Positions 4,152 through 50,693 of a DNA stretch of 64,000 nt are shown piece after piece. How positions within the stretch are numbered: position 1 is the first letter of the stretch; each line of letters opens with the position of its first letter. Made by a program: the position numbers and the translations under genes. Where the stretch lies: contig NZ_JTDV01000001.1 in assembly GCF_000943555.1 (NCBI RefSeq), forward strand, positions 124,001-188,000, read 5' to 3'. This stretch comes from Neotamlana nanhaiensis. Its GTDB lineage: Bacteria; Bacteroidota; Bacteroidia; Flavobacteriales; Flavobacteriaceae. The notes below the pieces were generated by a model. That model made no database searches and had not been told where the DNA came from. It saw only the letters and a program-made list of their open reading frames with translations.

Positions 4152-5609
4152 TTATTTAATTTTTATAATTATCCTTCTGTATCGGGTTAATGCTGGTTTT
4201 CCTGTATCCGTTACCTCGCAAACAAGATGTATAGTATCTCCCTCTTTGACATCTTTTGGCACCATAAACCCAACACTGATTTTATTAGGTTTTAGAATTT
4301 CTATTTTTCCATTGTAGCTATCAACCTCATCATATTGCCACCACTTGTAAATTAATTTATCACCATCGGGATCAAATGTCCCCTTGGCCGACAACTTTAT
4401 TTTATCACCAGCTTTGGCTTCAATATCCAAAGCATTGACAAGTACCACAGGTGCATGATTAGCTTCTTCAAAAGACTTTACACACCAATCGGCTCGTGCT
4501 GCAAAATCGTTTTGAAGCGCGTCAGCCCAACGTGTTAGGGGATTAAAATAGGCATTCATTAAATCTTGATTTTCAGGGTAGATATTCCGCATATAATTTC
4601 TACCCCAAGCCGATTGTGTATACCATCGGCCCTCTGGATAAGTATAATTTGCCTCAGGCACCGGATCCAACCAAGTATTTTCCCTAACTTTTATATAACG
4701 ACCGCCCCAACCACCAAAATCTGGTGATTCTAAAGAGCGCAACCCCGTGGGAATGGTATAAATAAAAGCTGGCGAATCGCCCTCTGAACGAAAAGCTCCT
4801 TTTTGCTTAGGACTTCCGGCTCTCCAGCCTTCATTATCACTCCCGCCCTTGTAAGCTTCATATAGCGAACATAATGCTCCATGACCTTCCAATATATTAG
4901 ATTTCATCCAGCCATTGCTGAAATAACCTAATTTATCTTCAGGCATAACTTTATCCCATTGGTAGGCTATAGCCCAAAATTGATCACAAATTATGGTTTG
5001 AATATTGAATTTCCCCCAAACACGACGGATATAGGTTTGATAAGTATTATCCTGTTCCCAGATAAAGAAAAAACGAAGTTTACTGGCTACATATTCCATT
5101 TTTTCAGGATGATTTTCTTCAATAGTTTTAAGCGCCCTTGCAATAGTGTTAGTGCCTCCCCATGCCTGAATCCAAACAGGACGATTATCGGATTCGTCCA
5201 AAAGCACCTTAACTATATGCTCTGAACCCGGAGTGACAATTTCCATTTCCCCCTCTGCATCTACATTACCCAAGAAAGCAATCGATTTTAAATATTCTGG
5301 TGACGGATAAGCTTTATCGTGCTTAACCAAATTGGAATAAACTTGGCCGTAGGTATCTAAATATTGTTCTACCCAATCATCACCAGCCCACTTATGGCCC
5401 CGCCAATGGTATTGAGAACTCGAAGTAATGATACCCTCAACATCCCATTCGTTAGTGTACAATAAAAATCGCACCATGGAACACTCGTCATCAATCTCAC
5501 CGTCGGAAGTTACAATTACTCTCGGTTTTAAGTTTTGTTCATAAAAAATTGTTTGAGACAGACAAAAAAGCACAAACATAATTATGGATAACTTCTTTTT
5601 TATTATCAT
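4152..5609 (-). CDS. DUF1593 nucleoside-hydrolase-like secreted protein (copy 1)
   Basis: About 485 residues, starting at the ATG at 5609. A TTG 15 nt further upstream would overlap the preceding gene, whereas the ATG leaves a 7-nt gap and gives a clean signal peptide (MIIKKKLSIIMFVLFCLSQ). The N-terminal domain resembles nucleoside hydrolases, but the metal-binding signature is altered: TSDGEIDDECSM instead of the DxxxxPDD form seen in the neighbouring copy. The last ~100 residues are a beta-sandwich with FDPDGDKLIYKWWQYDE, matching the Sde182-type C-terminal domain attached to this family. This is the third of three tandem relatives in transcription order. The family was linked to cellulose binding in Saccharophagus, but no activity is known to me, so I leave function open. 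Confidence 0.8.
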   Translation of the reverse strand: MIIKKKLSIIMFVLFCLSQTIFYEQNLKPRVIVTSDGEIDDECSMVRFLLYTNEWDVEGIITSSSQYHWRGHKWAGDDWVEQYLDTYGQVYSNLVKHDKAYPSPEYLKSIAFLGNVDAEGEMEIVTPGSEHIVKVLLDESDNRPVWIQAWGGTNTIARALKTIEENHPEKMEYVASKLRFFFIWEQDNTYQTYIRRVWGKFNIQTIICDQFWAIAYQWDKVMPEDKLGYFSNGWMKSNILEGHGALCSLYEAYKGGSDNEGWRAGSPKQKGAFRSEGDSPAFIYTIPTGLRSLESPDFGGWGGRYIKVRENTWLDPVPEANYTYPEGRWYTQSAWGRNYMRNIYPENQDLMNAYFNPLTRWADALQNDFAARADWCVKSFEEANHAPVVLVNALDIEAKAGDKIKLSAKGTFDPDGDKLIYKWWQYDEVDSYNGKIEILKPNKISVGFMVPKDVKEGDTIHLVCEVTDTGKPALTRYRRIIIKIK

Positions 5610-5616
5610 CGTTTTA

Positions 5617-7044
5617 CTATTCAATCACATCAATAATAACACGTTCGTAACGCGTTAAACGCGGTGAACCGTGGTCGGTTACAGCTAAAATAACATGCAA
5701 AGTTCCGGTAGAACCTAAAGCTCCTATACGTTTATTCGGCACTGTAAACCATGCCTCGGGTTGGTCGAAATTTTGAATATGTAACGGTTGACCGCTACGG
5801 GAATCGGAAACCGAAAACGTTCCGGCTTCTTCATAACAAAACCAATGGTAAGATAAGGCATCGCCATCTGGATCGGAAGATGCTTTGGCATTCAACAGGA
5901 TTTTATCTCCTTTTTTTGCTCTTATCCTTTTTTCGTTGGCCAACTTAGGAATTGGTGGATGATTAACTTTTTCATAATCTTTTATGGTCCAATCCATTCG
6001 GGCTGCAAAATCGTTTTGATACGCTTCGCGCCAGCGCCAAATGGTTTCATGGTTGCCCGAATGCCAACGCCCATCCACGCCCATAACTTCATCTTTAGCA
6101 TCAGAATAAAATGGTCTGCTCTCAGGGTACAAAAACCATTTTTGCGTTCGTGGCGTATAAAACTCGTATCGACCACCCCAGCCGCCCCATTCCGGATGTT
6201 CAGGATTACTCAATCCATTATTGATTAACGATAAAAACGAAGGCGTATCACCTTCCATTAAAAAATCCCAATGTGGATATTCCTCTCCCAAAGGCCCTTT
6301 TTTTCTAATATTTCTTTCCAACCATTCGTTTGAAACTAGAGTAAAATCGGCACCATCGCAGCGTGCATGAAAATAATCGCCACTAATACCGCTCCAAGTA
6401 GCATGATGATACCCACCTCCTGCATTAAAACCGGGGCTTGCGATATAAAATAAATTAGGGAATTCCTTTCTTATCCAAGGGCCACTATCATCTTGGTCTG
6501 AAATAGTGTAAACTCTCAGTTTACTAACGAATTTTTCCAAGTCTTTTGTAGAACGTGTTTCGCGCACTTCCCACAACGCTTGTGCCAATACATTAGGGCC
6601 ACCCCACACGGTTACCCATAATGGGCGCTCATCATTTTTATCAACAGCTTGAATAAGTTGCTCGGAAGCTTGCGAATTTTTCCCCTTGCCAACAGCTTTC
6701 ATCCCGTATTCGGGAAGGCCTTCACAAATAACAGACTCTACAAATTGGCCCGTTGGAAATCCAGATTCATGTTTTTCAAGATTGTTTCTCACTTTTCCGT
6801 AAGCCTCTACAATCTCTTTTACTCGCCATGTGGCCACTTTATTTTTTTGGTGAATAGAAGTTGTTGCCGCTAAACCTTCAATATCGAACTGATTGGCATA
6901 CACTAAAAATCTTACCAAAGACATGGCATCATCCGGTTCATTTTCAATATCGGTAAGTACAAAAACCCTGCTTTTTTCCTGTGCATAGGAAAAATTAATT
7001 ATTACTGTAAATACCAGTAACAATGTTAGTTTAAATAGTCTCAT
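5617..7044 (-). CDS. DUF1593 nucleoside-hydrolase-like secreted protein (copy 2)
   Basis: A 475-residue protein with signal peptide [21 protein letters not shown]. The nucleoside-hydrolase-like domain opens with [19 protein letters not shown], retaining the two adjacent aspartates used for calcium in true nucleoside hydrolases. [13 protein letters not shown] lies in the middle of the protein, as in copy 1. The C-terminal ~95 residues carry [18 protein letters not shown], the Sde182-type sandwich domain. It shares the two-domain plan of copy 1. The gene lies 11 nt after copy 3 and 7 nt before copy 1. A role in cleaving an N- or O-ribosyl-like bond in the polysaccharide is conceivable, but nothing here proves it. 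Confidence 0.82.
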
Positions 7045-7055
7045 TTAATTGTTGT

Positions 7056-8354
7056 TTAGTTGTTGAGCCACGCCCATCTTTTGGCCCAATCCATTAAAAA
7101 GGCTTCGCGGTGTCTTGAAATAGTTTTTGCTCCTTGTTGGTCTTTTAAGAATAAAGCTTCATCGGGTAAGTCGCCGTACCAATTTTCTCCCAAAACATAG
7201 TCATCTTTGTCTTTTTTACCTGGCCAAGGTTTGATGCTGACATACTGCCCAGTATGACCATCCAATTCAGGAATAGCACTTGACGTTTTGTAACTGGCCG
7301 CTTCTGGTTTTTTAGAAGAATATCTAGTAGCGTAAACACCTTTACCCAAATAATAACCTGGCCAAACTTGCTTGGAAATTTCCATGGTGAAACACACCGA
7401 ATCTTGCGGAATATCCAATTCCGGCCCTTTAAAATGCCATTCTTGAATGCCATAGGCCACTACTGTATCGGCTATTGAACTATTGCCCTGAAATATGGTA
7501 CGCGAACTGTGGTTGATTTTTACAAATTCACCACCCCAACTTTCGGTGGTAGGGTCATCAGGGTTTCCATTCATAACATAGGCCAATGATGGGGTATCAC
7601 CCATTTTAATTCGCCCTTCGTAGTAGTTTATAAAATCGGTGCCCATGTGCCCCACATTTTTAATATAGTTTTCAAAAAAGACCTTGGCTTTTAAATCTTT
7701 TGGTGATTCCGAATCCATAAACCAGCCCCGATAAGTCGCATTGTTTTCAATCATCCAAAGGTTAGGATGTTTTTCGGCGATATACGCATAAGCATTGGCA
7801 CCCCATTTTTTATTGGGACCGCCAATCCAATACACCCTTATTTTATCTTCAATTTCTGGAGCGTCATGCAGCGCTTGGGCCACATCTTCAATACCGCCCC
7901 AAACCAGCACCCACAGTGGTTGGTCGCTTTGCTTTTTCGCGCATTTAATGATCCAATCCGATCCTTCGGAAGATTCACGATATCCTTTATACGGTGCTTC
8001 TTTGGTAGTGCCCTGCTTGGTTAAAGCCCTTAAAGCATCTGGATTGGGCAAATCTGGAGCATGAGCTCTTAACTTCGGAAGATCTTTTTCATAAAGATCA
8101 ATCATTTCAAAAATATTATCAGTAGTGCCCGTTTGGAAAGAAGTGGACACCAATCCCTCAATTTGAAATTCATTGGCGTACATCAATAGATGAATCATTG
8201 ACTGATTGTCGTCAGGGTCAGTACCCCCAATATCGGTACTGATTAAGATTCTTGGTTTAGTTATCTCTGAACTGCTTTGAGCACACCCCAAAAAACAAAA
8301 AACAGAATACAAAGCACAAATAAATGTGGTGATTTTAGTTGGCGAAAGAAACAT
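7056..8354 (-). CDS. DUF1593 nucleoside-hydrolase-like lipoprotein (copy 3, most divergent)
   Basis: A 432-residue lipoprotein (FLGC lipobox in MFLSPTKITTFICALYSVFC...). The N-terminal domain begins RILISTDIGGTDPDDNQSM, the best match of the three copies to the nucleoside-hydrolase DxDxxxDPDD calcium motif, followed by HLLMYANEFQIEGLV. Unlike copies 1 and 2 it lacks the FDPDGD sandwich domain; its C-terminal third (PQDSVCFTMEISKQVWPGYY...) is different and unassigned. It is the first gene of the left-hand group and is preceded by 122 nt containing a 20-nt tandem repeat. That makes it a plausible promoter-proximal gene. Substrate unknown. Confidence 0.78.
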   Translation of the reverse strand: MFLSPTKITTFICALYSVFCFLGCAQSSSEITKPRILISTDIGGTDPDDNQSMIHLLMYANEFQIEGLVSTSFQTGTTDNIFEMIDLYEKDLPKLRAHAPDLPNPDALRALTKQGTTKEAPYKGYRESSEGSDWIIKCAKKQSDQPLWVLVWGGIEDVAQALHDAPEIEDKIRVYWIGGPNKKWGANAYAYIAEKHPNLWMIENNATYRGWFMDSESPKDLKAKVFFENYIKNVGHMGTDFINYYEGRIKMGDTPSLAYVMNGNPDDPTTESWGGEFVKINHSSRTIFQGNSSIADTVVAYGIQEWHFKGPELDIPQDSVCFTMEISKQVWPGYYLGKGVYATRYSSKKPEAASYKTSSAIPELDGHTGQYVSIKPWPGKKDKDDYVLGENWYGDLPDEALFLKDQQGAKTISRHREAFLMDWAKRWAWLNN

Positions 8355-8476: not shown

Positions 8477-9718
8477 TTAGTTTCGTTTTCTCCAAAAATT
8501 GGCAAGTACAGAACCTGAAATATTCATCCACGGACTAAAAACAGCCGCTGCCAATCCTAAAGTAGCCAGTTTTCCCATCGCTCCTGCTAATCCAGATGCC
8601 ATTCCTCCGTTTTGTAAACCGACTTCAAAAGCAATAGTCTGACTTTGTTTTTTACTCAAACCTCCTATCCTACTGATGGCATACCCAAAAACATAACCTG
8701 CCGAATTGTGAAGAATAGCCGCTAAAAATAATAACAAGCCAATTTCGAGTAGGTTTTCGCTTCCTGCTGCGGTAGTGACTAACGTGAAATACACAATACC
8801 AAACATGGAAAATAACGGCATGTAACTATCAATTTTACAAAAGGATTTATAAACCATATGATATAAAACCCCAACAACAAAAGCAGCACATAAAAAGTTT
8901 ATAATAATGATTACGTTAGGCATCGTTTTACCAAAAATGGTTTCCGATAAAAACAGAACCAGTAACAACCAAAGTCCGCAAATCATAGAAATTTTAAAGA
9001 TAAATGCACGTGTTTTAGAATTATAGATTTTCAAAGCATCATGAATCATGGCGGCAATAAGTGGCACCAAAACTATTTTTACAATATTCATCATCATGGT
9101 GAGGAAATCAATTTCAATAAAGGTTCCTGCAAATACCTTCATTAAAAATGTTGTCATAATGGGTGCTGTTAAAGTTGAAATCGCTGTAACCGTAACCGAT
9201 AGCACCAAATCGCCTTTAGCAATATAAGTCATAACATTGGAAGCTAAACCACTACTACACGAGCCAATAAGCACAATTCCTGCTGCAATTTCGGGTTCAA
9301 ATTGAAACGCTTTTGCTATTAAAAATCCGATTACAGGCATAATAGTAAACTGGCATAATAATCCAACTAAAACACCTCTACCTGATTTTTTTATGCCTAT
9401 AAAATCCTTAATACTCATTTGGGTGCCCATACCAAACATAACCAATTGTACGATGATTAAAATGAGCCATTTATTTCGCAAATCGATACCACCTACATTT
9501 AAAATTTCTTTAGGATAGATTAATCCTGAAACTACCGCCGTAACAATCCAAAACGTGTATTGATAATTAGCTAATGCTTTTACCGAACCTATACCTATTG
9601 CAAAGGAAATTAACCCACAAACCACACATAATTTACTAAACCAATAGGTTTCAATACCGAATGAAATGGCAGAAACTAAAAGAAATAGAAAAGCTATGTA
9701 AAGAAAATATTTACGCAT
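8477..9718 (-). CDS. BASS-family (SBF-like) organic anion:sodium symporter
   Basis: A 413-residue integral membrane protein with about ten hydrophobic segments and very little soluble sequence. Family hallmarks are GSCSSGLASNVMTYIAKGD (around residues 152-170) and EVGLQNGGMASGLAG near the C terminus. These are the two crossover regions where bile acid/sodium symporters bind sodium and substrate. Members carry organic anions such as bile acids, pantoate and 2-keto acids. It follows the racemase-like gene after 77 nt that include a strong hairpin. Its position after a RuBisCO-like/kinase module suggests uptake of a monoanionic sugar acid, but this is inference. The protein is about 80-100 residues longer than many prokaryotic members, with extra N-terminal hydrophobic segments. 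Confidence 0.85.
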   Translation of the reverse strand: MRKYFLYIAFLFLLVSAISFGIETYWFSKLCVVCGLISFAIGIGSVKALANYQYTFWIVTAVVSGLIYPKEILNVGGIDLRNKWLILIIVQLVMFGMGTQMSIKDFIGIKKSGRGVLVGLLCQFTIMPVIGFLIAKAFQFEPEIAAGIVLIGSCSSGLASNVMTYIAKGDLVLSVTVTAISTLTAPIMTTFLMKVFAGTFIEIDFLTMMMNIVKIVLVPLIAAMIHDALKIYNSKTRAFIFKISMICGLWLLLVLFLSETIFGKTMPNVIIIINFLCAAFVVGVLYHMVYKSFCKIDSYMPLFSMFGIVYFTLVTTAAGSENLLEIGLLLFLAAILHNSAGYVFGYAISRIGGLSKKQSQTIAFEVGLQNGGMASGLAGAMGKLATLGLAAAVFSPWMNISGSVLANFWRKRN

Positions 9719-9795: not shown

Positions 9796-10458
9796 CTAAA
9801 AATAATCTTCAGCCAATTTTTTCATGGCAATAGCAGGACTTGCAAGAATGGGTACTACTTTTTCTTCGGCAGTTAAACCATCTACAACACGAGACATTGA
9901 TGCCTGAGCTAATACAATCACATCAACTTCTTTCATTAGTCCTTTTAAAGCAGATGCTACCATGGCATCGTGTTTTGCGCCATCACCGCTCATTAACGCT
10001 TCAAATGCGCCATCGCATAATTTTGAAGTAATTTCAACCTGCTTTCCTGCTACTTCTGCGCGACGTTTTACTAAATCGGTTGTAGGTTCTAAAGTAGTTG
10101 GCAATGTTGCAATCACACCTATTTTATTACTTGTTTTAACCGCTTCATCTGCCATAGCTTGATCTACGCGAATTACAGGCACTGTGCTTAAAGTTGCGCC
10201 AGTTTCTATAGCCACACCAATAGACGAGCAGGTCACCAAAATAACATCGGCACCAGCGTGTTCTGCGGCTTGAATGTGTTTAACCACACGAGCTGCGGTG
10301 TTTGCTTTTAATTCACCTTTTTTAATAACATCTTTAATTAAACTATCGTCTACAATGTTGAAGGTGTCTACGTTTTTTAAATAATCGTTTGTGAGTTGCT
10401 GAAACAAAGGCACCAATGTTGCCGAGGTATGTACAAATCCTAATTTTTTCGCTTTCAT
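9796..10458 (-). CDS. Asp/Glu/hydantoin racemase-like protein
   Basis: A 220-residue cytoplasmic protein without signal peptide. The fold family is recognisable from LVTCSSIGVAIE (Cys77) and the Rossmann-like segment KIGVIATLPTTLEPT (112-126). Two-cysteine racemases have a second catalytic Cys in the C-terminal half; here the equivalent strand reads IVLAQASMSRV (181-191) with no Cys. A classical two-base racemase is therefore unlikely. It is the third gene of a kinase/RuBisCO-like cluster (26 nt after the kinase), so it probably acts on the same sugar acid, perhaps as an isomerase, decarboxylase or lyase. The substrate is unknown. Confidence 0.8.
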   Translation of the reverse strand: MKAKKLGFVHTSATLVPLFQQLTNDYLKNVDTFNIVDDSLIKDVIKKGELKANTAARVVKHIQAAEHAGADVILVTCSSIGVAIETGATLSTVPVIRVDQAMADEAVKTSNKIGVIATLPTTLEPTTDLVKRRAEVAGKQVEITSKLCDGAFEALMSGDGAKHDAMVASALKGLMKEVDVIVLAQASMSRVVDGLTAEEKVVPILASPAIAMKKLAEDYF

Positions 10459-10484: not shown

Positions 10485-11870
10485 TTAATTAATTTTTTCT
10501 CCTTTTAGAACTTTTAAAAAATAATCTGGCGTTCCTACTTGTCCGCCTTTAAAATTAAGTTCTAAATTATTCACCAAAGCATCATCAGAAATGGCCTTAC
10601 ATAATGGCGCTCCTGGAGCCAAAGGTGCAATCATTTCTAGTGCTGAAATATGTAATTCTGAAGCAGCGTAACTCGATGTATCGCCACCTGCAAATAGAAT
10701 ACGTTTTAAATCGACTTGTTTTAGAACCTGTTTAGCAATTTCTCCCAACACAAAGCCGTAAGTAGAACTACAGGCATTTTGAATGGCTTCTTGAGCAATG
10801 CCTTGTGATTTGAAAATTTGTTCCGATTCTAAAATACGAGGATCGTTCGAGCCTTTGCTAGTATGCAAAACAACACTTTTACCTTGTTTCAAATAGCTTA
10901 CTATTTCTGAAACCACAGAAGCAATAATTTCTTTTTGTTTAGAAGAATTCACTGCTTCGCTTGGTAATGCTATCTCCTCAAAACCGTTTTTTACAGCATA
11001 TTCAATTTGTTTTTGAGTTACTGGCGAGCAACTTCCAGACAATACCAAAATAGGTCCGTTTTCGCCATAATGAGCACTCATTTCTTTAGCTGAAACGATA
11101 CCTTTTGAAGCCCAATCTAAACCTAATGCCATAGCAATGCCTGACGAACCTACCGAAAATAAGGTTTGTTTTTCGGCATAGGTATTAAAAACGCTTCCTA
11201 TGGTTTGCAAATGCGATGTATTTAAGCCATCAAAAAATAGAATTTCGGCTGAATTATTTTCAACTTCGCTTAGCACTTTTTCTACACCAGATTCCATTTT
11301 TGTAACATCAATTAAGTTTATAGATTTTTTGGTTTGTTTTGCCAAATGAGTTCTTAAATCACCATCCAAAGCTGGTGTTACGGGATGTTTACTCATAGAC
11401 GGGTGTTGATCGATTCTGTATATATCGCCATCGCCTGCTGTTCCCATTTTCGCAAAAAGATTTCCGAAAGCACAATAGCGACCTAAATGCGGTGCCGATG
11501 GCGAAACAAAAACAGTTTGCTGATTAAATACCGAACTTCCAACCGCAATGGCAGTACCTATATTGCCAACATGTGGAGCCGAATCGAATGTAGAACAGAC
11601 TTTATAATGCACGTGTTTAGGTGTAAAATTTTTTAATATTTTAAATGCAGGGTCAAGCTCTTCTTCCATAGCTTTGGGAGCCATCGAACGGCTTTTTCCC
11701 GCAATTCCAATGGCTTGAATATCTGGAAATTGCTCAACATCGGCTTTTGTTGGTTGTTTTAAAAACAAAATGGTTTTTAATCCCGCTAAGGTTAAAAACT
11801 CCAAAGCATCGGTGGAGCCTGTAAAGTCATCACCGTAAAAACCTAATAATATGTTGTTTTGCCCCGTCAT
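10485..11870 (-). CDS. Four-carbon acid sugar kinase family (DUF1537; OiaK/OtnK/DtnK-like)
   Basis: A 461-residue cytoplasmic protein. The N-terminal substrate domain begins LLGFYGDDFTGSTDALEFL (8-26), the DDFTG signature of the family. The C-terminal nucleotide-binding domain carries LFAGGDTSSYAASEL. Characterised relatives phosphorylate D-threonate, L-erythronate, 3-oxo-tetronates and, in apiose catabolism, 3-oxo-isoapionate. The stop codon of the RuBisCO-like gene abuts this start with no gap, so the two are translationally coupled. Kinase plus RuBisCO-like protein is the pairing described for apionate breakdown, which makes an OiaK-type role the leading guess. Sequence alone does not exclude a tetronate kinase. 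Confidence 0.85.
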   Translation of the reverse strand: MTGQNNILLGFYGDDFTGSTDALEFLTLAGLKTILFLKQPTKADVEQFPDIQAIGIAGKSRSMAPKAMEEELDPAFKILKNFTPKHVHYKVCSTFDSAPHVGNIGTAIAVGSSVFNQQTVFVSPSAPHLGRYCAFGNLFAKMGTAGDGDIYRIDQHPSMSKHPVTPALDGDLRTHLAKQTKKSINLIDVTKMESGVEKVLSEVENNSAEILFFDGLNTSHLQTIGSVFNTYAEKQTLFSVGSSGIAMALGLDWASKGIVSAKEMSAHYGENGPILVLSGSCSPVTQKQIEYAVKNGFEEIALPSEAVNSSKQKEIIASVVSEIVSYLKQGKSVVLHTSKGSNDPRILESEQIFKSQGIAQEAIQNACSSTYGFVLGEIAKQVLKQVDLKRILFAGGDTSSYAASELHISALEMIAPLAPGAPLCKAISDDALVNNLELNFKGGQVGTPDYFLKVLKGEKIN

Positions 11871-13112
11871 TTACTTTTTAAATTTCTTTACCGAAGCTGC
11901 AAACTCCTCATGTTTTGCTGCTGTTTCTTCTAAAGTTAAACCTTCTACGGCGCCTTTCCAAGCTTGCTGTAATGCCGTTACGCCTGCTTTTGGACCTAAC
12001 GGATGCGCTAAAATACCGCCTCCTGCCATGTAGAGTAAATCTGTTGTTTGTGTGCGTCTGTAGGTTTCAAATGCTTGTCCGCCCCATTGCCCCGATGAAA
12101 CCACAGGACAAATTTCATCGTTTCCAAACATTGGTTTTAAACAGGATTTTATTGAGGTTACTACAGAATCGTCCGATTCCCAAAATTTATTTTGAATGCC
12201 ATTTACATGCAACTGATCTACACCTGCTAAGCGTTGTAATTTTTGATACGCTGGAAATTCAATTCCTAATAACGGATGCCTATTCATCATGCCCCAACCG
12301 TTTCTGTGGCCATGAATTACCAGTTCACCTCTGTCGCACAATTTTTTTGTTGCTGCTAAACCAACACTGTTTACGCTAATCATAGCGCAACTTCCTCCTT
12401 CCGTAACAATGGTATCGTAGTGTTTTTGCATTTGGTCTATTTCATCGGAAATATTGAAGGCATACATTACCTTTTTACCTGTTTTTTGTTCGTTATCCCG
12501 AATGATCTCCATAATGCCTTTTACACGTTCTTCAAATGGTGAATTTGCTGCAGACCCCATTAATTCATCATCTTTTATAAAATCAATACCTGCTTCAATT
12601 AACGATTTCACCAAATTTGCGGTTTCTGAAACCGACATACCTATACTTGGTTTTATGATGGTACCAATCATGGGTCTGTCTCCTACACCACACGATTGTT
12701 TTGAACCTTTGATACCGAATTTTGGTCCCGAAAAATGATTTTTAAACGAATCTGGCACTTCTAAATCCATCAGCTTTAAACCTGTAAACTGACTGATTTC
12801 ATACAAATTACCTTGAAGCGTGCTTACCAAAACAGGTAAATTATACCCGAAGTTTTCAATAGACCAACTCACCTTTACTTTAGCACGTTGGTATTTTTTT
12901 CCTGGTATGGAATTTCCTGGAATTGAAGGATTATCAGCTATATCAAGTAGTTGTAAATCTTCAACACGTGCAGCAAACCGTTGTTTTAACTCCTCAGTTT
13001 CACCCGGAACAGAAACAAAAGTTCCTGAAGATTGCTCACCAGCTAAAACGGCTGCGGCATGTTCTACATCATAAGGTGTTTCGATATAATATTCAGCAAA
13101 AACTCTTTCCAT
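11871..13112 (-). CDS. RuBisCO-like protein (form IV; OiaX/OiaT-type candidate)
   Basis: A 413-residue RuBisCO large-chain homologue. Active-site elements present are GTIIKPSIG (Lys154), GIDFIKDDE (Lys180 for carbamylation with Asp182 and Glu183 as metal ligands), HGHRNGWG (267-274), HVNGIQNKF with Lys309 at the loop-6 position, SSGQWGGQ (339-346) and AGGGILAHPLG (363-373). Loop 6 lacks the GKxEG form of true RuBisCO, and there is no small subunit or phosphoribulokinase nearby, so carbon fixation is unlikely. RuBisCO-like proteins next to DUF1537 kinases act as decarboxylase or transcarboxylase/hydrolase on 3-oxo-isoapionate 4-phosphate in apiose catabolism. That reaction type is the best hypothesis, strengthened by the GH140 gene in the same locus. 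It follows the GH2 gene by 8 nt. Confidence 0.87.
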   Translation of the reverse strand: MERVFAEYYIETPYDVEHAAAVLAGEQSSGTFVSVPGETEELKQRFAARVEDLQLLDIADNPSIPGNSIPGKKYQRAKVKVSWSIENFGYNLPVLVSTLQGNLYEISQFTGLKLMDLEVPDSFKNHFSGPKFGIKGSKQSCGVGDRPMIGTIIKPSIGMSVSETANLVKSLIEAGIDFIKDDELMGSAANSPFEERVKGIMEIIRDNEQKTGKKVMYAFNISDEIDQMQKHYDTIVTEGGSCAMISVNSVGLAATKKLCDRGELVIHGHRNGWGMMNRHPLLGIEFPAYQKLQRLAGVDQLHVNGIQNKFWESDDSVVTSIKSCLKPMFGNDEICPVVSSGQWGGQAFETYRRTQTTDLLYMAGGGILAHPLGPKAGVTALQQAWKGAVEGLTLEETAAKHEEFAASVKKFKK

Positions 13113-19186: not shown

Positions 19187-20287
19187 CTATTTTCCCCAAG
19201 CCAAAGTACATTTCCCTATGGCATAAAAAGTTTTTTTATCATCATTTACCATAGATGTGTAAACCACTGTAAAAGTGCCATCATCTTCTTCAATAGCACA
19301 TAATGGTGTACGCATGGCGTGGTCGCCTTCTTTACCCCAGAGGTTCTTGTCTGATTGAATTTTAATCCTAATTTCCGGACTCCAATTAATGCCATCATCA
19401 GATAAACTATAGGATATTTCGTGATTGCCAAAAGAGTCAAAAACGGCTAAATATCCACCTGCCTTTAATTCTGTTACCTGAGGATTTTCAATAAACTCTT
19501 CTGCAATTGGCAATGGGTTAATACCTTCGGGCAATCTTTCCCATGGTCCTTCTAATTTTGATGCTTTTGCAAGACCAACTGGCCATGGTCCTTTAGGAAT
19601 ATAATTATGTCCATCATAGAATGCATACCATTTATCACCAACTTTATAAGGGTTAAAAGTAGCGACTGCCTGTTGGCCTTCCCATGACTGGGAATTCTCG
19701 TCAGGTTGTAATACGATACCCATATCGGCATAAGGTCCTGAAATACCATCAATGCCTTTAAAAACTGATTTTGCGCGCCATATTCTTCCCTGATAATCGC
19801 TTCTTGCATATTCTCCATTTTCACTATCCCCTCCTCGATAAGCTACATAAAAAATATTCCATGCATCTTCCATTTCATTAAACTCAACACCAGTTATCCA
19901 AACTTCAGATCTGGGGTTTGATGGCGACCTCCCTGGAATACTTTCCTTTATCGTTGAATGTCGTTTCCAATTAACAGCATCTTCGCTAATCCAATAAGAT
20001 ATCCTTAAATCCCTATGAGGGCGAAAGAACATTTCGTTTACAAACATGTGATAAATACCATTGACCTTTACCACTTGTCCTGTCTCAAAACCAGCTTGAT
20101 TATTTGTGCCCAAAACATCTTTATGATTATTCCCTATAACTGGCCCAATATAATCTGACAACAAAACTAACTTTTTACCCTTTTCTTTAATTTCTTTTTG
20201 TGAAAACGCAGTATACAACGGAAGAAAGAAACATAAAGAAGCTAGAACGAATCGATATAATAAAAACTGTTTGCTCTTGTGAAACAT
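19187..20287 (-). CDS. Secreted five-bladed-propeller glycosidase-like protein
   Basis: A 366-residue protein with signal peptide ending LPLYTAFSQ. It has repeated propeller strands such as GIYHMFVNEM, YWISEDAVNWKRH, DAWNIFYVAYRGG, DKWYAFYDGH and YSLSDDGINWSPE. These patterns are typical of the GH32/GH43/GH62/GH68/GH117/GH130 fold group. I cannot place it in one family; GH43-like is the nearest description, and GH137, a propeller beta-L-arabinofuranosidase family of RG-II, is an alternative worth testing. It is the last gene of the compact run, 6 nt after the GH29 gene, so an exo-acting side-chain role is likely. Confidence 0.65.
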   Translation of the reverse strand: MFHKSKQFLLYRFVLASLCFFLPLYTAFSQKEIKEKGKKLVLLSDYIGPVIGNNHKDVLGTNNQAGFETGQVVKVNGIYHMFVNEMFFRPHRDLRISYWISEDAVNWKRHSTIKESIPGRSPSNPRSEVWITGVEFNEMEDAWNIFYVAYRGGDSENGEYARSDYQGRIWRAKSVFKGIDGISGPYADMGIVLQPDENSQSWEGQQAVATFNPYKVGDKWYAFYDGHNYIPKGPWPVGLAKASKLEGPWERLPEGINPLPIAEEFIENPQVTELKAGGYLAVFDSFGNHEISYSLSDDGINWSPEIRIKIQSDKNLWGKEGDHAMRTPLCAIEEDDGTFTVVYTSMVNDDKKTFYAIGKCTLAWGK

Positions 20288-21749: not shown

Positions 21750-24434
21750 CTAATAAAATAACCAATCTACGGTCTTTCCTGCTTCTGAATCGGTAATACC
21801 AGCATCATGAATTAAAATGTTTTCTTTATCATCAATAAAGCCTAAAATTAAAACTCGACCTTTACCAAGTACTAATTCATGTTGACCAGGTTCATAACTA
21901 TAACTGTAAATATTTACAGGATAAAGCCCTGGAACTAGCATAGCATTAGCTATTTTAATATCCGCCTGTCCTCTATTGTTAGCTTGCGCATTGGTTTCTA
22001 ATGTTGGTGGTTCTAAAACCGTATAGCTATTTGTATTGAAATACCCTACTAATATTTTGATTGGCTGGTCATTTTTAAACTTTAAAACCGTTCCTTCTTC
22101 TCTTTGCAGCTCATCAGAAAACTGAACTCCTGATAATTTCTTTAGCTCATCGGCAACTTCTTCTATTTTTGCCGTATTATCCGAATATACTTGCTGTCCC
22201 TTTTGCAATTTAAACTGTTTAACGCCTTTATTAAGAATTGTTACTTGAGCAGGTTCATACGCTTTAACTTTTTTCTCTTCAATATTGCCGCTATCTTTTG
22301 ACTTAAGCATTTCAATATTACGCTTAAATACTTCTAACTCTTTTTGATAATGAGGTAATAATTCTTCCCAAGTTTTATTGGTGCCATCTCTTCCAGTAAT
22401 AGGAATACGCCTTTGGGCTGTTTGCATACTGTTGGCATACAAATAAGTGTATTTTGTAAGCCCCACCAACTCGTTATAATACTTCAAGCTATTTTCTAGA
22501 TAAGGACTCGCCTTTTCTAAATCGGTAATATCATTAGAGTATTTGTACTGTAAAACTAACATAGCCGCCTTTACTTTTTCAGCAAAGAAATTAGCAAAGG
22601 CATTATAACAATACACATCGTTTTTTAAACGCTCAAACTCTTCGTTGTTTTTTCCAATTGATGAAGTAGCTCTTTCAATAGCTTCTACAGCTAATTTCCC
22701 ATGGTTTACAACTTCTTCAATAATCTGAGGTGGTGTTTCTCCAACATGAGGTTCTCCTTTCCATTCTTTTGCTGCATAATCGATAAGTATCTCTCCAATA
22801 GGCCCGTTAGAAGACAAGAAGTTTTTGTAAACATGATATTTGTATGGGTTTACTAATTGCCCCATGAACATACCCAACAACAAAGTTTGACGGTTTCCAT
22901 CTGAAATCCCGAAAGTTCTAAGTAATTTTGGAGCAATTTCCCCAGTTTCCTCATAGGCAACTAAAATATCTTTTCCTCCTTCGTCACAATTATAGTAATC
23001 GCCAATTACGTCTGTCCAATAATCAACTTCTTCACCTCTATCTCTTTGCGATTTCCATGCATATCTAGCCCAAGCTTGATACCACATCCAATCACGGTCG
23101 ATTTGTTTTAATCGTTCAGTAGTATTATCGGCTGTATAAGGCCAATCCCAATATGACGACTGTGGGTACAGATGTAACCCATTGGCTCCCTGAATGTCTC
23201 TCATAGCCTTCACACTCTTTTGAATAAAATCGGGTGAACTATATCTAAAAGGCTCCAAATTCGCCAAAATATGAACATTAGAGATGTGCACCGAACCCAG
23301 TTCGCTCAATGCCTTAGGAATAGATTCCCAAGCATCTCTAGGCTGATAAGTTGTTAGCGACTCGCCATTGTATTTAAACGTTGTATATAAGTTTTTATAA
23401 ATTGGTAATGCTGCTTCCATAACTTGTTTGGCATCGGTATCGTGCCCTCGTAAAACAATAGGCGGTTCGTTGGTTATGCCTAATTCTTCTAAACCATTTT
23501 TAACTCCTGGAATAATGGTTTTTGTAAACCATTCCACATCATCATCAATGGTATGCATCGCTTCGCCTAACGTTACCAAAAAGCCAACATTTGGGTATTT
23601 TTTTATGAATTCGGTAATCGATTTTTGGGTGTAATCTGCAATTAGTGGTGTTATTGGTCGGCTACGTTCTTGAGTTTTTATACCATGCTCTTCTGCAAAA
23701 GGTTTTGAAACTATAATGTTATAAAACATCTGAATTACCCATATTCCTCGTTTATTAGCTTCTTCTGTCAAGAACTTAAAAACTTCTTCATTCTTTTTAA
23801 ATGTTTCATCATCAACTTCTACGGCATAAGGATAATCATCTAATTTTACTAAAGAAGCAAACGGGTGTCCGTTCCATAAATACAATGTATTAAAACGGTT
23901 TTCAACCATCATATCTAAATACTCAATCCAATGTGCTTTATCGTAAAACCAAGGAAAGTTTTCGGGCGTGTATGGATATTCGTAAACGGTACGCCCGGGT
24001 AAATATTCAGTTTTTTGTAGTCCAATGCAGGTACCACGTAAAACCATTTCTGGTTTATCTTGAATATTTAGATTTAAAGGAATTTCGCCAGAAGCCTCAA
24101 CTCTGTCAGATAATTCTAAAGCACCGTATAAGGCTCCAGAGGCATCAGTACCTTCAATAGTTATGGTATTTTTTGTTGAGCTTATTTTAAAACCTTCTTT
24201 ATTGGTTTTATCTAATTTTTCAGTAATTGAAATTATAAGTGCATCATTTGTATTTTCTTCATTAGCTGAAGCTAGACTTACCTGATAACCTAAATCTAAT
24301 AACGTTTTTTCAAGCTTTTCTTGAGCAAAACCAATTCTAGAGTTTTCCGAATCAACTACAATGATGACTTGTTGCTTTTCCGAACACGAAGAAAGCAAGA
24401 TTAACGTAACTAATAAAACTAAAATGTTTCGCAT
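21750..24434 (-). CDS. Large lipoprotein with GH20/GH67-like N-terminal domain and TIM barrel
   Basis: An 894-residue lipoprotein (MRNILVLLVTLILLSSC). Residues about 20-115 resemble the zincin-like accessory domain that precedes GH20 and GH67 catalytic barrels (ENTITIEGTDASGALYGALEL-type segment). A TIM-barrel-like part follows (KAHWIEYLDMMVENRFNTLYLWN, then GFLVTLGEAMH, PIVLRGHD and LHLYPQSSYWDWPY). The middle-to-late part is helical, and the C-terminal ~180 residues look like beta-sandwich. Its start overlaps the preceding stop by one base (TAATG). I cannot assign a CAZy family: an alpha-uronidase is suggested by the GH67-like layout, and an RG-II alpha-galacturonidase role is a speculation. 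Confidence 0.6.
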   Translation of the reverse strand: MRNILVLLVTLILLSSCSEKQQVIIVVDSENSRIGFAQEKLEKTLLDLGYQVSLASANEENTNDALIISITEKLDKTNKEGFKISSTKNTITIEGTDASGALYGALELSDRVEASGEIPLNLNIQDKPEMVLRGTCIGLQKTEYLPGRTVYEYPYTPENFPWFYDKAHWIEYLDMMVENRFNTLYLWNGHPFASLVKLDDYPYAVEVDDETFKKNEEVFKFLTEEANKRGIWVIQMFYNIIVSKPFAEEHGIKTQERSRPITPLIADYTQKSITEFIKKYPNVGFLVTLGEAMHTIDDDVEWFTKTIIPGVKNGLEELGITNEPPIVLRGHDTDAKQVMEAALPIYKNLYTTFKYNGESLTTYQPRDAWESIPKALSELGSVHISNVHILANLEPFRYSSPDFIQKSVKAMRDIQGANGLHLYPQSSYWDWPYTADNTTERLKQIDRDWMWYQAWARYAWKSQRDRGEEVDYWTDVIGDYYNCDEGGKDILVAYEETGEIAPKLLRTFGISDGNRQTLLLGMFMGQLVNPYKYHVYKNFLSSNGPIGEILIDYAAKEWKGEPHVGETPPQIIEEVVNHGKLAVEAIERATSSIGKNNEEFERLKNDVYCYNAFANFFAEKVKAAMLVLQYKYSNDITDLEKASPYLENSLKYYNELVGLTKYTYLYANSMQTAQRRIPITGRDGTNKTWEELLPHYQKELEVFKRNIEMLKSKDSGNIEEKKVKAYEPAQVTILNKGVKQFKLQKGQQVYSDNTAKIEEVADELKKLSGVQFSDELQREEGTVLKFKNDQPIKILVGYFNTNSYTVLEPPTLETNAQANNRGQADIKIANAMLVPGLYPVNIYSYSYEPGQHELVLGKGRVLILGFIDDKENILIHDAGITDSEAGKTVDWLFY

Positions 24435-26365
24435 TACTCGACTTTAAATACTTGTTTTAAATACTTTACATTAGCTCTGTAGTTCTTCACTACTTCGCGT
24501 ACCATAGACGTGTCACGAGAACGTTCTACAATTAACCAACCTTTCCAGTGCATTTTATCTAAGGTTTCTTTAATTTTTGGCAAATCGATTGCTGGATCGT
24601 TTTCAATCCAATGCCCATCGGTGTTTGAGGCATGAATTTCACCAATATTATCACGTCCCAAAGTTTTTAATTCCTTAGAAATATCTCGTCCGTTTTTAAT
24701 TGCATTTGCAAAATTAAAGGCGATTTTAATGTTTCTATTACCAATTTCTTCCAGTAGCTTTTTCTCTTCGTCCGCCGAAAGTGAAGTTTCAACAGCAATA
24801 ATGCCATTTATTTTATCAACCTGCTCACCTGCCCAACGCAAACGCTCTACGATCGCGGGACGCAATTCTGGATTTTTAACCAAATCGCCTTGAGTTCCCA
24901 ATGGTAAATAAGCCACTTCAACATTAAAAATTTTCATTACCTCAATACAATCTTCAACCATTTGTTTTACGGTTTCTCGCTTTGCAAAAGATTGCGCGTA
25001 AAAACCAGACATAGCCACAGAACTAATACCAACACCCGTTTCAGTTGATTTTTGCTTAAACACGCGCACACTAGCTGTGTCGCCATTTATAAATTTACTA
25101 TCAAAAGTTTCACGATTTCCTAAGCCACCCATGTCCATTTCAATGCCTTCGGCACCAATTTCTTTAGCACGCTCAAAAGAACCCAATTTTTGACGTTTGA
25201 GAATCATCCAATCGCAGACCGCAATTTTATAGCGTTCTTTTTGTGGCCCAGGCCATACACCATCTTTTATTGGGAACGTAACGAGTTTTGAAGGATCTAT
25301 TTTTACGTATTTGATTTTTTGACGTCGCCAAGTATAAACACAGTGCAACATGCCATCAGATCCTTGAATAATTGATGGATAGGAATATTGACTGATACGT
25401 GAATCTTCCAACACCAAAGCGGCATTCCAATTAATGCCGTCTTTAGAAATTGCTAAATTTAATGGACTTCTATAGCTTTTCTGCATATCCTCATTTGGCC
25501 AAACATGGTTATAAATTAAGGCATGCTCTCCGTTTTTCATGGTAACAGCATCTGTACCTGAATTATTATTGGGCATGTTCAACAATTCTAAAGGCGACCA
25601 TGTTTTACCATTATCTTCAGACCAAGTTGAAAATAAATGTCTGTTTCTGGTGCGTCCTATTTGTTGTAATTTACCATCTTCATGGAATAAAATGCTTGGT
25701 TGAATAGCATTGATAGCGTTTAGTCCTTTTGGCAATGTATCTTGCATTTGGTGTGTTTTACTAAAGTCAGAAGTTGATTCCAAGCGTAAATTCCATCCAT
25801 TTTCTTCGGTACTCGATGGTAATAATAACCTTCCGTCCTCTAATAATTCTGGTTTGTTTTTTATTGGACCTAAAAAACCTTCAGGTAGTTTTTCGGCTTC
25901 AGACCAGGTTTCGCCACCATCAGCTGAACGTTTTAACATACCCCACCACGTTGAAGGATGCGGACCAACTTTATAATACAATAATAAATCGCCATTTGGC
26001 ACTTGATACAACACTGGGTTCCAAGTTGGGTAACGCAATGTATCGTTTTGAACACCATTGGCAACTTCTTTCGCTTCCGTCCATTTGCCATTTTTGCGTT
26101 TACTTACATAAATACACACATCTGGATTGCGCTCATGCGTACCACCAAACCAAGACGCAACCAATTCGCCATTCGTATTTTCGGCTATTGTAGCTGCATG
26201 ACACGATGGGTATGGTGCTCTATTATATACAAATTCATCTATTTCGATGCCTTCGCGCCAAGTTTTATCGGCTAAAGCAATTTGCGGCACGTCTTCTTTT
26301 GTTTCTTTACAACTTCCAAAAAGAAGTGCTACAAAAAGTAAAATTAAAGGTTGGTATATTTTCAT
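24434..26365 (-). CDS. Fusion lipoprotein: sialidase-type BNR propeller + xylose-isomerase-like TIM barrel
   Basis: A 643-residue lipoprotein (MKIYQPLILLFVALLFGSC). Residues about 40-375 are a BNR propeller with Asp-boxes SADGGETW and SEDNGKTW and the opening PSCHAATI...WFGGTHERNPDV. This is clearly related to the C-terminal domain of the protein at 198-2759. Residues about 380-643 are a sugar phosphate isomerase/epimerase (AP-endonuclease-2-like) barrel: GAEGIEMDMGG, VETSLS, EIHASNTDGHW, LIVERSRD. The position where many relatives have a metal-binding Asp reads FNFAN, with Asn. Barrels of this type are normally cytoplasmic, so a surface or periplasmic copy joined to a glycosidase-like propeller is unusual. 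Leader TTTAGTTTAAT (plus-strand view) precedes the ATG as in susC and fucI. Confidence 0.83.
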   Translation of the reverse strand: MKIYQPLILLFVALLFGSCKETKEDVPQIALADKTWREGIEIDEFVYNRAPYPSCHAATIAENTNGELVASWFGGTHERNPDVCIYVSKRKNGKWTEAKEVANGVQNDTLRYPTWNPVLYQVPNGDLLLYYKVGPHPSTWWGMLKRSADGGETWSEAEKLPEGFLGPIKNKPELLEDGRLLLPSSTEENGWNLRLESTSDFSKTHQMQDTLPKGLNAINAIQPSILFHEDGKLQQIGRTRNRHLFSTWSEDNGKTWSPLELLNMPNNNSGTDAVTMKNGEHALIYNHVWPNEDMQKSYRSPLNLAISKDGINWNAALVLEDSRISQYSYPSIIQGSDGMLHCVYTWRRQKIKYVKIDPSKLVTFPIKDGVWPGPQKERYKIAVCDWMILKRQKLGSFERAKEIGAEGIEMDMGGLGNRETFDSKFINGDTASVRVFKQKSTETGVGISSVAMSGFYAQSFAKRETVKQMVEDCIEVMKIFNVEVAYLPLGTQGDLVKNPELRPAIVERLRWAGEQVDKINGIIAVETSLSADEEKKLLEEIGNRNIKIAFNFANAIKNGRDISKELKTLGRDNIGEIHASNTDGHWIENDPAIDLPKIKETLDKMHWKGWLIVERSRDTSMVREVVKNYRANVKYLKQVFKVE

Positions 26366-37380: not shown

Positions 37381-39231
37381 TTACAGTTTTTTGGTTATCA
37401 ATGATTTTATATTGAACACAGCCTCGCGAATTGACGCACCTGTAAACGGCACATCATCATAATTTGGTGTATCAACAGGTGTATCTACATTTGGATAGTA
37501 GCGCTGTTCGCCTGTACGGAACATGATTCTTGAAATTCCGTCTGTTGGCATAAAAAAGATGCCTTTCACTTCCTTTTCATCATTAATTTTAATGTCGTAT
37601 AAACGCGTTGAAGCATCAACAGATAAAGTTATTTGGTATTCTTTTCCGGCATCATATGGCATAATATTTCGCAAGCGATACCCCATTTTTTGCTTTATAT
37701 TTCCTGCTTCATCAAAAATTAATCGTACCGAAGGCAAACCTTGTGCATTTTGCAATTCAATTTGAAGCATGCCATGATTGTTTTGCTCTGGTTTAACCGT
37801 GAACGTAACTTCTAACTTTTCAGAAAATGGAATAACACGCTCCACACGTGAGTAATCAAAAGGATCTTGATCGCGTAAGGTTAACCATTTTTCACCATTT
37901 TTTGCTTCAATATTTGCGGTTGCCCATTGCAAATCGTATGTGTTCCAAAGCTTTAATTCTTCGCCATCAGGCATATTTGTAAACACATCATTGGCATGTT
38001 CACTAACTGTATTGGTAACAGGAACGGGCACTGAAGCCACCCAAATATCTTCTTTATTTACACTATAGGTTAACCACATATTGCCATCTTTAGGCGTACC
38101 GTTGTTTGGCGTTATTCCACGCACATATTGCGGCCCGTGCGATTTGTAAGCACCACCATAGCGAATGCGAGACAATTCACCATGAACAAGAAATAAGTTA
38201 TCATAATTCAATCCGTCATTACTAGTTGAAACCGCTAAAGGCCATCGAAATTCTGAAGGATTATAAACTGTTGCATACTTTCCGTCTGTTGTTTTTTGTC
38301 CCCAAATTTTAGCATTGCTGTTTACAAAACCTGGTGCGCGTAACGGGTCGTATTGCCATGTTTTACCACCATCATTACTCATTGAGGTTAAGGCGTGTTT
38401 CCATAAACCAACGGTTCTTCCATCTGGAATATCGTAAAAACTAAAGGCTTTATATTGTTTTTGCAACGGAATTAACGGATCGTCTCTATCGGCTTCTTCA
38501 ACCCATTGCTGCATTAATAGTGGTTGCGCCATTAACTCCTCGCAAGCCTTTTTAAAACCGCGATCTTTACTGCTTTTATAGAATGGATAGTTGGTATTTT
38601 TTTCGTTCCAACCATGATTGTATCGAATAAAATAAATAGCCCCTAAACTACCATCTTTATAGATTTCTCGAATAACACGTCCAATACCGTTACCATCGTT
38701 AGGACTGTCTTTTTCGTGCATAGAAATACCGTAAAACGCCAATGTGAAAAAGCGATTATCAGATGACGTGAAAAAGCCCATACGTTGATGCATGGTAGCT
38801 TTTAAATTTTTAGCAACACCTTCTACGCCTTCTTTAACAAAACCATCAGGAATGCTATAAATAGGAAACGTAACCTGCGGGAAACTCCACTTTTCTCCAT
38901 CTTTTGAAGTTAACATAAAGGTTTGACTAGGCGGAATATGTTCACCAACAGGATCGCTTAAATATTGTATAAAAAACGTATCATTCCAATAGGCTATGTT
39001 TGGTGCGTGATTGTACGTCCATCCATAACCATCAGCTTTTTCAGGGTGTTCACGACTTGCCCTCATAATTTGAGTGGCATGCACACCAACCGCTGGTTCT
39101 AACATACCATGATGGTAATCGACGTTTGATAAGGTTTTACCAACATATTTTATGGTATCCTGTTGTGCGTTTAGCACAGAAACCACACATAATAATTGGG
39201 TAATGAGTATGGATTTAAAACCTAACTTCAT
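37381..39231 (-). CDS. Secreted sialidase-type propeller with C-terminal concanavalin-like domain
   Basis: About 616 residues from the ATG at 39231 (MKLGFKSILITQLLCVVSVLNA signal); the longer frame would need a TTG. Residues about 20-425 form a propeller with Asp-box-like turns TSKDGEKW, SNDGGKTW and STSNDGLNY, plus conserved NHAPNIAYWNDTFFIQYLSDPVG near the start. Residues about 430-615 (WLTLRDQDPFDYSRVERVIPF... to YNDVPF-type end) resemble a LamG/concanavalin-like sandwich. I do not recognise a family with certainty. It sits in the tight run 1 nt from both neighbours, between GH43 and GH78. An exo-acting hydrolase or lyase on an acidic sugar is the simplest idea. Confidence 0.65.
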   Translation of the reverse strand: MKLGFKSILITQLLCVVSVLNAQQDTIKYVGKTLSNVDYHHGMLEPAVGVHATQIMRASREHPEKADGYGWTYNHAPNIAYWNDTFFIQYLSDPVGEHIPPSQTFMLTSKDGEKWSFPQVTFPIYSIPDGFVKEGVEGVAKNLKATMHQRMGFFTSSDNRFFTLAFYGISMHEKDSPNDGNGIGRVIREIYKDGSLGAIYFIRYNHGWNEKNTNYPFYKSSKDRGFKKACEELMAQPLLMQQWVEEADRDDPLIPLQKQYKAFSFYDIPDGRTVGLWKHALTSMSNDGGKTWQYDPLRAPGFVNSNAKIWGQKTTDGKYATVYNPSEFRWPLAVSTSNDGLNYDNLFLVHGELSRIRYGGAYKSHGPQYVRGITPNNGTPKDGNMWLTYSVNKEDIWVASVPVPVTNTVSEHANDVFTNMPDGEELKLWNTYDLQWATANIEAKNGEKWLTLRDQDPFDYSRVERVIPFSEKLEVTFTVKPEQNNHGMLQIELQNAQGLPSVRLIFDEAGNIKQKMGYRLRNIMPYDAGKEYQITLSVDASTRLYDIKINDEKEVKGIFFMPTDGISRIMFRTGEQRYYPNVDTPVDTPNYDDVPFTGASIREAVFNIKSLITKKL

Positions 39232-39232
39232 A

Positions 39233-48037: not shown

Positions 48038-48120
48038 TGTTAGGAAACTTGATTTTTTAATCTGATTTTGTTTAGATATATGCATTACTAAATACATTCA
48101 CAAGAACTTCTCGATAGAAA

Positions 48121-50571: not shown

Positions 50572-50693
50572 AACTAGTTTTAATGTTTTATTGTTTATTT
50601 TAAGTTTTGTGGTAATGGATAACATCCATTACTAATACTTTTAAATTTTGTTTAACCCTAAGTTTTTTCAAAGAAAAAAGGGCTAAAATGTGA

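Follow-up and report, generated by a model that had tools for sequence, protein, structure and literature searches.

The OiaK/OiaX branch of D-apiose catabolism was reportedly described by Carter et al. in 2018, a study cited in PMC6302742 and PMC10176493. RuBisCO-like proteins (RLPs) are placed in the apiose pathway by both of these papers; the former names a transcarboxylase/hydrolase activity (OiaT, 3-oxo-isoapionate-4-phosphate) for an RLP of Xanthobacter, and the latter cites Kim et al. 2018 for an RLP oxygenase in the D-hamamelose pathway. Other described enzymes act on rhamnogalacturonan II (RG-II), whose composition is treated in PMC12168206 and PMC12282258 and which, according to the first of these, is present across all plants. 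Among them is BT1003 of Bacteroides thetaiotaomicron, named as a GH127 aceric acid hydrolase in PMC5698469 and PMC10850190; in the former, aceric acid is 3-C-carboxy-5-deoxy-L-xylose. Among the matches listed in the open-licence literature (title and start of abstract), no paper appeared to deal with the catabolism of aceric acid after its release. Here we describe a cassette of four genes, for an RLP, a kinase, a racemase-fold protein and a BASS transporter, found in a stretch of 64,000 nucleotides of Neotamlana nanhaiensis (positions 124,001 to 188,000 of contig NZ_JTDV01000001.1, assembly GCF_000943555.1; hereafter the window). We consider it probable that these genes form a catabolic module for L-aceric acid from RG-II.

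The cassette is an operon-like run on the minus strand, in the order RLP (11871-13112, 413 aa; PF00016 4e-61, PF02788 2e-8), OiaK-like four-carbon acid sugar kinase of the DUF1537 (SBD_N/NBD_C) type (10485-11870, 461 aa; PF07005 2e-55, PF17042 8e-34), Asp/Glu-racemase-fold protein (9796-10458; PF01177) and BASS/SBF sodium symporter (8477-9718). The nearest NCBIfam models of the symporter are bass and PanS, both matched below their cut-offs; the family includes carboxylate carriers. The stop codon of the RLP gene (TAA) is followed directly by the ATG of the kinase gene, with a gap of zero. An earlier note, made from the letters of the window, had already described an RLP with intact Lys154, Lys180-Asp-Asp-Glu and Lys309, a DUF1537 kinase abutting it, and a GH140 gene in the same strand run; our searches bear out each of these observations, and the RLP and kinase genes are both complete. 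The GH140 apiosidase-family protein is encoded at 41741-43168 (minus strand; PF13204 7e-109), 28.6 kb from the RLP. At 61079-63094, again on the minus strand, lies a gene for a GH127 aceric acid hydrolase of 671 aa (NF049879, 1098 bits with a cut-off of 950), whose N-terminus appears by eye to be hydrophobic and signal-like.

A scan of species genomes gave at least 573 relatives of the RLP, the best 80 of which (65-94% identity) were kept. In 70 of these 80 loci all four genes are present, in the same order and on the same strand; taken singly, the kinase occurs in 77, and the racemase-fold protein and the transporter in 75 each. Three of the ten exceptions stop near a contig edge (L040, L050, L079), in four the racemase-fold protein and the transporter are encoded on the other strand (L038, L062, L066, L073), and in the remaining three (L032, L033, L055) at least one partner is absent from the examined stretch. 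A BT_1020-like gene stands directly behind the RLP in L032, L040 and L055, and L032 and L055 have no kinase in the stretch. The carriers include many Bacteroidota, among them Flavobacterium, Pedobacter, Mucilaginibacter and Niabella.

The neighbours of the cassette point to aceric acid. Of the 80 loci, 37 have a GH127 gene no farther than 10 kb from the RLP, and in 27 it is located directly upstream on the same strand, at less than 300 bp (14-215 bp). Such direct adjacency was seen in Flavobacteriaceae, Sphingobacteriaceae, Chitinophagaceae, Flectobacillus and Fodinibius (Balneolota); none of the Flavobacterium loci has GH127 within 10 kb. Over the same distance we detected GH140 in four loci, a BT_1020-like protein in eight and a homologue of L-fucose isomerase (FucI) in one. 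Usable open reading frames (ORFs) were obtained for 34 of the 37 neighbouring GH127 genes (the exceptions being L058, L064 and L075), and all 34 match the aceric acid hydrolase model NF049879 and no other NCBIfam model. Because other GH127 proteins match this model too, at about 490 bits, a bare match was dropped as proof of subfamily in favour of a comparison of scores. Such a neighbour is encoded in 21 isolate loci, and in every case it is the top NF049879 match of its genome; 20 of the 21 exceed the 950-bit cut-off (1043-1209 bits), the Pelagicoccus protein scoring 917 bits.

The link was also visible at the level of whole genomes, for which two samples were profiled: 296 Bacteroidota genomes, and 50 isolate genomes with the RLP, taken from the 51 apparent isolates among the 80 relatives (L009 was left out, and the other 29 relatives fall outside). 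Three genomes (G021, G080, G286) appear to belong to both sets, and the counts take genomes as independent, with shared ancestry uncorrected. Among the 296, the aceric acid hydrolase exceeds its cut-off in 16 genomes, with a gap in the scores between 1056 and 845 bits, and an RLP of the window's clade (496-517 bits) occurs in seven, the next RLP type following at 225 bits. All seven RLP genomes hold the hydrolase (P=3e-10 if genomes are independent), each on the same contig as the RLP and within 53 kb of it. The racemase-fold protein was found in exactly the same seven genomes, the next best score being 28 bits. In the isolate sample the hydrolase is above the cut-off in 49 of the 50 genomes and reaches 917 bits in the 50th.

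In the earlier note a different sugar was proposed: GH140 would free D-apiose, enzymes encoded outside the window would convert it through apionate to 3-oxo-isoapionate, and the kinase and the RLP would act as OiaK and OiaX/OiaT. Several observations agree with this. The best NCBIfam models of the two proteins are indeed OiaK and OiaX, the RLP clade has OiaX as its sister group, GH140 lies in the locus and accompanies the RLP in seven of seven RLP genomes among the 296 and, as a strong match (at least 340 bits, a cut-off chosen at a gap in the scores), in 46 of the 50 isolates; furthermore, the window encodes an AP_endonuc_2 TIM barrel (within the fusion at 24434-26365), of the same superfamily as an OiaC-like protein of the Bacteroidota genome G119. 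The distribution of the genes nevertheless speaks against apiose. Strong GH140 matches occur in 25 of the 296 genomes, including all 16 with the aceric acid hydrolase, and among these 25 the RLP is present in 7/16 with the hydrolase versus 0/9 without it. The four isolates without strong GH140 keep both the RLP and the hydrolase, which dissociates the RLP from GH140. ApnO (PF16896) was detected in one of the 296 genomes, G119, which lacks the RLP clade, and with the same model in none of the 50 isolate genomes. Aceric acid is therefore preferred to apiose, because the RLP co-occurs with the aceric acid hydrolase and not with ApnO.

Enzymes acting upstream on apionate, which the earlier note expected elsewhere in the genome and whose lack it had itself named as telling against its reading, were not found as searched: the 4.02 Mb genome gave no ApnO with a protein query and PF16896 (in control loci this query detects homologues with 46-72% identity), and no ApnL with a protein query that had no independent positive control. 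Apiose dehydrogenase (ApdH) was sought in the window, where none lies, and in the 80 loci. Near some RLPs, GFO/IDH/MocA dehydrogenases of two families (13 and 11 loci) were considered for this role and set aside, being neither conserved nor present in the window; in 8 of the 14 matching loci they are 20.6-27% identical to the ApdH of Salipiger. For comparison, oiaX of Rhizobium sp. K102 sits with genes for a kinase, TIM, RpiB, an ApnO-type dehydrogenase (PF16896) and a Gfo/Idh/MocA dehydrogenase. In G119, ApnO is encoded beside GH140 and an AP_endonuc_2 protein, and no RLP of the window's clade is present. That cluster (L128, G119:C171) also contains a GntR regulator, and with its AP_endonuc_2 protein read as OiaC-like it appears to represent a different type of apiose pathway within Bacteroidota. 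The OiaC-like query from G119 does not match the AP_endonuc_2 barrel of the window, which is fused to a BNR_2 sialidase-like domain. It seems that an oxidative apiose route exists in Bacteroidota, but not where the cassette is. An apiose route through ApnO was thus supported neither by the protein query, nor by the Pfam model, nor by the phylogenetic profiles, and we regard apiose as an improbable substrate of the cassette. What survives of the proposal is its kind, i.e. the coupling of the release of a branched pectin sugar to a pathway of kinase and RLP; the sugar itself is probably aceric acid and not apiose.

The structures of the two sugars suggest how enzymes resembling OiaK and OiaX could serve aceric acid. 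The apiose intermediate 3-oxo-isoapionate is HOOC-C(OH)(CH2OH)-CO-CH2OH, and judging by the formulas the ketose of aceric acid would be its methyl homologue, HOOC-C(OH)(CHOH-CH3)-CO-CH2OH. The carbon adjoining the new keto group would already carry a carboxylate from the sugar itself, and ApdH, ApnL and ApnO would therefore not be needed; since the two compounds differ by a single methyl, a kinase resembling OiaK and an RLP resembling OiaX/OiaT would be the right tools after one isomerisation. According to formulas and gene content, the conservation of one further enzyme and one transporter would match the needs of such a route.

The route that we propose begins with the GH127 at 61079-63094, which would free L-aceric acid from RG-II. 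The BASS symporter would then import the sugar across the inner membrane, and the racemase-fold protein, with Cys77 as its single base, would convert the aldose to the 2-ketose CH2OH-CO-C(OH)(COOH)-CHOH-CH3 ('acerulose'). By analogy with OiaK, the kinase would phosphorylate the CH2OH beside the keto group to give acerulose 1-phosphate. In the last step the RLP might decarboxylate this beta-keto acid to an enediolate, shift the carboxylate to the side that bears the phosphate and hydrolyse the C-C bond, yielding 3-phosphoglycerate and lactate (presumably the L form, from the configuration at C4 of the sugar); this would be the second half of the RuBisCO reaction, carried out on a 5-deoxy analogue of its carboxyketone intermediate. 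That the complete sequence runs as written, from a one-base racemase-fold isomerase through the kinase and the RLP to 3-phosphoglycerate and L-lactate with no net loss of CO2, is rather unlikely, and its parts differ in strength.

If the module serves aceric acid, the kinase step is very likely, by analogy with the apiose enzymes. The best NCBIfam model of the kinase is OiaK (NF042436), matched with 413 bits and a cut-off of 700. The kinase next to oiaX of Rhizobium also remains below this value (466 bits), and NCBIfam cut-offs were therefore dropped as an argument on their own.

The isomerisation step is less certain. The AlphaFold model of the racemase-fold protein (pLDDT 95) has the Asp/Glu racemase fold (TM 0.78 to 1jfl, by the query), and the best PDB match by sequence profile reaches just 2e-5. 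Residues were counted in the 76 RLPs (that of the window and 75 relatives) and 75 racemase-fold proteins whose ORFs were called and clustered. Cys77 is present in 75/75 racemase-fold proteins and aligns to the first catalytic Cys of 2eq5 and 3qvj, which we take to be hydantoin and allantoin racemases; in alignments that are weak though in agreement (phmmer E 0.02 and 0.08), the position of the second catalytic Cys is occupied by Gln185, also in 75/75, the family motif L-A-Q-A-S-M standing against L-G-C-T-G-M in 2eq5 and L-G-C-G-G-M in 3qvj. A second conserved cysteine, C148 (74/75), is located elsewhere than the Gln185 position. Two-base racemases need both cysteines, and a cis-enediol isomerase can act with one base. 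Since Gln185 apparently replaces the second Cys, a two-base 1,1-proton transfer appears unlikely, and these residues fit a one-base 1,2-transfer via an enediol, as in aldose-ketose isomerases. Given the aceric acid module, the chance that this protein is the aldose-ketose isomerase of aceric acid falls somewhat short of even.

FucI, encoded at 59250-61031 on the minus strand (TIGR01089, 1077 bits with a cut-off of 850), is an alternative candidate for the same step, leaving the racemase-fold protein a task such as mutarotation or epimerisation. Fucose isomerases act on 6-deoxy aldoses, and the gene adjoins that of GH127 in the window. It passes the cut-offs of both FucI models, and RG-II also contains fucose (PMC12168206). 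In addition, a FucI homologue lies near just one of the 80 RLP loci, against 75 of 80 for the racemase-fold protein, which tracks the RLP exactly in the 296 genomes. This variant of the aceric acid module is, in our opinion, not very likely.

The RLP is, judged by its sequence, a form IV RuBisCO-like protein, with the RuBisCO fold and altered catalytic residues. Its best NCBIfam model is OiaX (NF042437), matched with 509 bits, i.e. below the cut-off of 700 bits, which was exceeded in none of the 296 Bacteroidota genomes; it is about 50% identical to OiaX of Rhizobium. Identity as the methionine-salvage enzyme MtnW was rejected by the scores with TIGR03332 and PRK09549 (136 of 514 and 170 of 409 bits, versus 509 for OiaX). 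A comparison by tree, which the note had advised, put the protein next to OiaX, moderately supported (92/86 and 90/77 in two trees), in a clade of its own rather than within OiaX; this clade of 17 rows (100/98) contains Bacteroidota, Balneolota and Verrucomicrobiota. As the first tree had two very long branches, the second was rebuilt after RuBisCO and three Bacteroidota RLPs of a different type, together 4 of the 32 rows, had been taken out. That other type (202-225 bits to OiaX) occurs in 62 of the 296 genomes (L098-L120), and three of its proteins that were checked have Lys334 replaced by Arg, Asn123 by Glu and Thr65 by Gln.

Most catalytic positions of RuBisCO (residue numbers follow the spinach enzyme) are retained. 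Lys154, Lys180-Asp-Asp-Glu183 and Lys309 are identical in all 76 aligned RLPs, as is the whole set E26, T31, N102, K154, K180, D182, E183, H269, R270, H302 and K309, matching RuBisCO E60, T65, N123, K175, K201, D203, E204, H294, R295, H327 and K334; the position of Lys177 is Ser in 76/76. The alignment columns labelled S379 and G381 were not used, being out of register with RuBisCO. The four rows of the OiaX clade carry E60D, N123G and H327Q, in contrast to the E/N/H of the window's clade. E/N/H are also kept by RLPs that fall outside the OiaX clade and are encoded beside ApnO (Labrenzia L132, Caballeronia L136, Haloterrigena L086). The retention of Glu60, Asn123 and His327 hints at an OiaT-like C-C hydrolysis by the RLP, giving 3-phosphoglycerate and lactate. 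On a haloarchaeal plasmid, the Haloterrigena locus (L086, 8001-15816) groups ApnO, RLP and kinase with pyruvate kinase and enolase, and the presence of the last two hints at a 3-phosphoglycerate product there. No homologues of TIM, RpiB, ApnO or the G119 OiaC-like protein were found in the 80 loci or the window (tblastn, E<=1e-5). The absence of TIM and RpiB was at first taken as a sign of the OiaT type, an argument weakened by the Salipiger OiaX locus, which also lacks both. The odds of hydrolysis were set lower for this reason, with those of the complete route brought down closer to the product of its steps, and, given the aceric acid module, a hydrolytic rather than purely decarboxylating RLP is nearly, but not quite, an even prospect.

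In the purely decarboxylating variant the RLP would behave like OiaX, and the resulting 5-deoxypentulose 1-phosphate would be split by a class II aldolase to dihydroxyacetone phosphate and acetaldehyde. The nearest named family and sister clade is in fact the decarboxylase OiaX, and the genome contains a candidate aldolase, a class II domain in an ORF of 710 aa, the size of a RhaD-type fusion. On the other hand, the window's clade retains the Glu/Asn/His lost in the OiaX rows, a query with AraD revealed no AraD-like aldolase in the 80 loci, and the second match to class II aldolases in the genome is an AraD. We consider this variant of the aceric acid module less likely than not. An oxygenase outcome, as in the hamamelose pathway, is also possible.

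Several findings weigh against the assignment to aceric acid or its proposed steps. All reactions of the route are predictions from sequence and gene content. In the window the GH127 gene lies 48 kb from the RLP, farther than GH140; 43 of the 80 loci have no GH127 within 10 kb, and the 80 are a selection, the best matches among at least 573 relatives. All seven RLP genomes among the 296 also hold strong GH140 (P=1.3e-8), as RG-II loci tend to hold both GH140 and the hydrolase, and within the GH140 genomes the hydrolase separates the RLP weakly (P=0.024, lineages not independent). The RLP is missing from 9 of the 16 hydrolase genomes, and the link between the two is therefore one-way. In the rebuilt tree, which includes no characterised OiaT, the join to OiaX has a support of only 90/77 and two long branches remain, while the Salipiger OiaX locus, with no TIM or RpiB within 8 kb, makes their absence undiagnostic. 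As for the isomerase, the alignments behind Gln185 are weak, FucI adjoins GH127 in the window, and we know of no aldose-ketose isomerase with the Asp/Glu racemase fold.

With SusC/SusD, GH140, the GH127 aceric acid hydrolase and a BT_1020-like protein, the window is an RG-II utilisation locus. The SusC-like TonB-dependent receptor (52830-56141; PF13715, PF07715), SusD (50831-52843; PF07980) and the BT_1020-like protein (37381-39255; PF24067 8.8e-121) are encoded on the minus strand, as are, among others, GH28, GH95, two rhamnosidases, GH2 proteins and an alpha-L-fucosidase identified by domain searches. Between 198 and 56141 the only plus-strand ORFs of at least 150 aa are 1895-2353 and 11915-12379, both inside minus-strand genes. 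Behind the transporter, 4152-8354 contains three tandem Sde182 nucleoside-hydrolase-like proteins, which are also present in L002, one relative being located upstream of the RLP in L014. A single ORF at 198-2759 joins a PelZ-like region (38-387) to a BNR_2 domain (523-800), and three proteins of the locus (19187-20287, 46349-48097, 48865-50625) have no Pfam match at E<=0.001.

A plus-strand segment at 56404-58867, between the two halves of the locus, encodes a DHDPS-family aldolase (56404-57321; family assignment) and an SSF symporter, which are candidates for the use of Kdo or Dha. These two acids of RG-II were also considered as substrates of the cassette itself, since 8 of the 80 loci encode a BT_1020-like protein no more than 10 kb from the RLP. 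However, all eight also carry GH127, which was found over this distance in 37 loci; Dha and Kdo, as 3-deoxy-2-ulosonic acids, lack a quaternary carboxylated carbon, and the DHDPS-family aldolase may suit them better. It is thus highly improbable that the cassette serves either acid.

If the assignment to aceric acid is correct, four genes can be named for the use of this sugar after its release, the enzymes that release RG-II sugars being already known. RuBisCO-like proteins would gain a further function, in which an enzyme with most of the catalytic residues of RuBisCO performs similar carbon chemistry on a sugar acid, and the racemase fold possibly a new reaction. Bacteria that have the hydrolase and not the cassette (9 of the 16 in our sample) would leave aceric acid to others.

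Compared with described systems, the cassette probably encodes a variant pathway of the OiaK/RLP kind, in which aceric acid takes the place of apiose. It shares with the OiaK/OiaX branch a DUF1537 kinase adjoining an RLP and, as proposed here, a branched sugar acid as substrate. It differs in that ApnO, ApnL, TIM and RpiB were not found, in the presence of the racemase-fold protein and the BASS transporter, in its linkage to the aceric acid hydrolase, in the retained Glu/Asn/His, and in scores below the NCBIfam cut-offs. The product of OiaT is 3-phosphoglycerate, and the reaction predicted for the RLP is alike in type on a different substrate, a likeness drawn through residues. As with the RLP oxygenase of the D-hamamelose pathway, the RLP would belong to a pathway for a branched-chain sugar. 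The fold and the first catalytic Cys of the Asp/Glu/hydantoin racemases (PF01177) are preserved in the third protein of the cassette, but Gln replaces the expected second Cys in 75/75. Finally, in likeness to BT1003, the GH127 of the window and those adjacent to the RLP match the NCBIfam equivalog for aceric acid hydrolase, an enzyme that releases the sugar on which the cassette probably acts.

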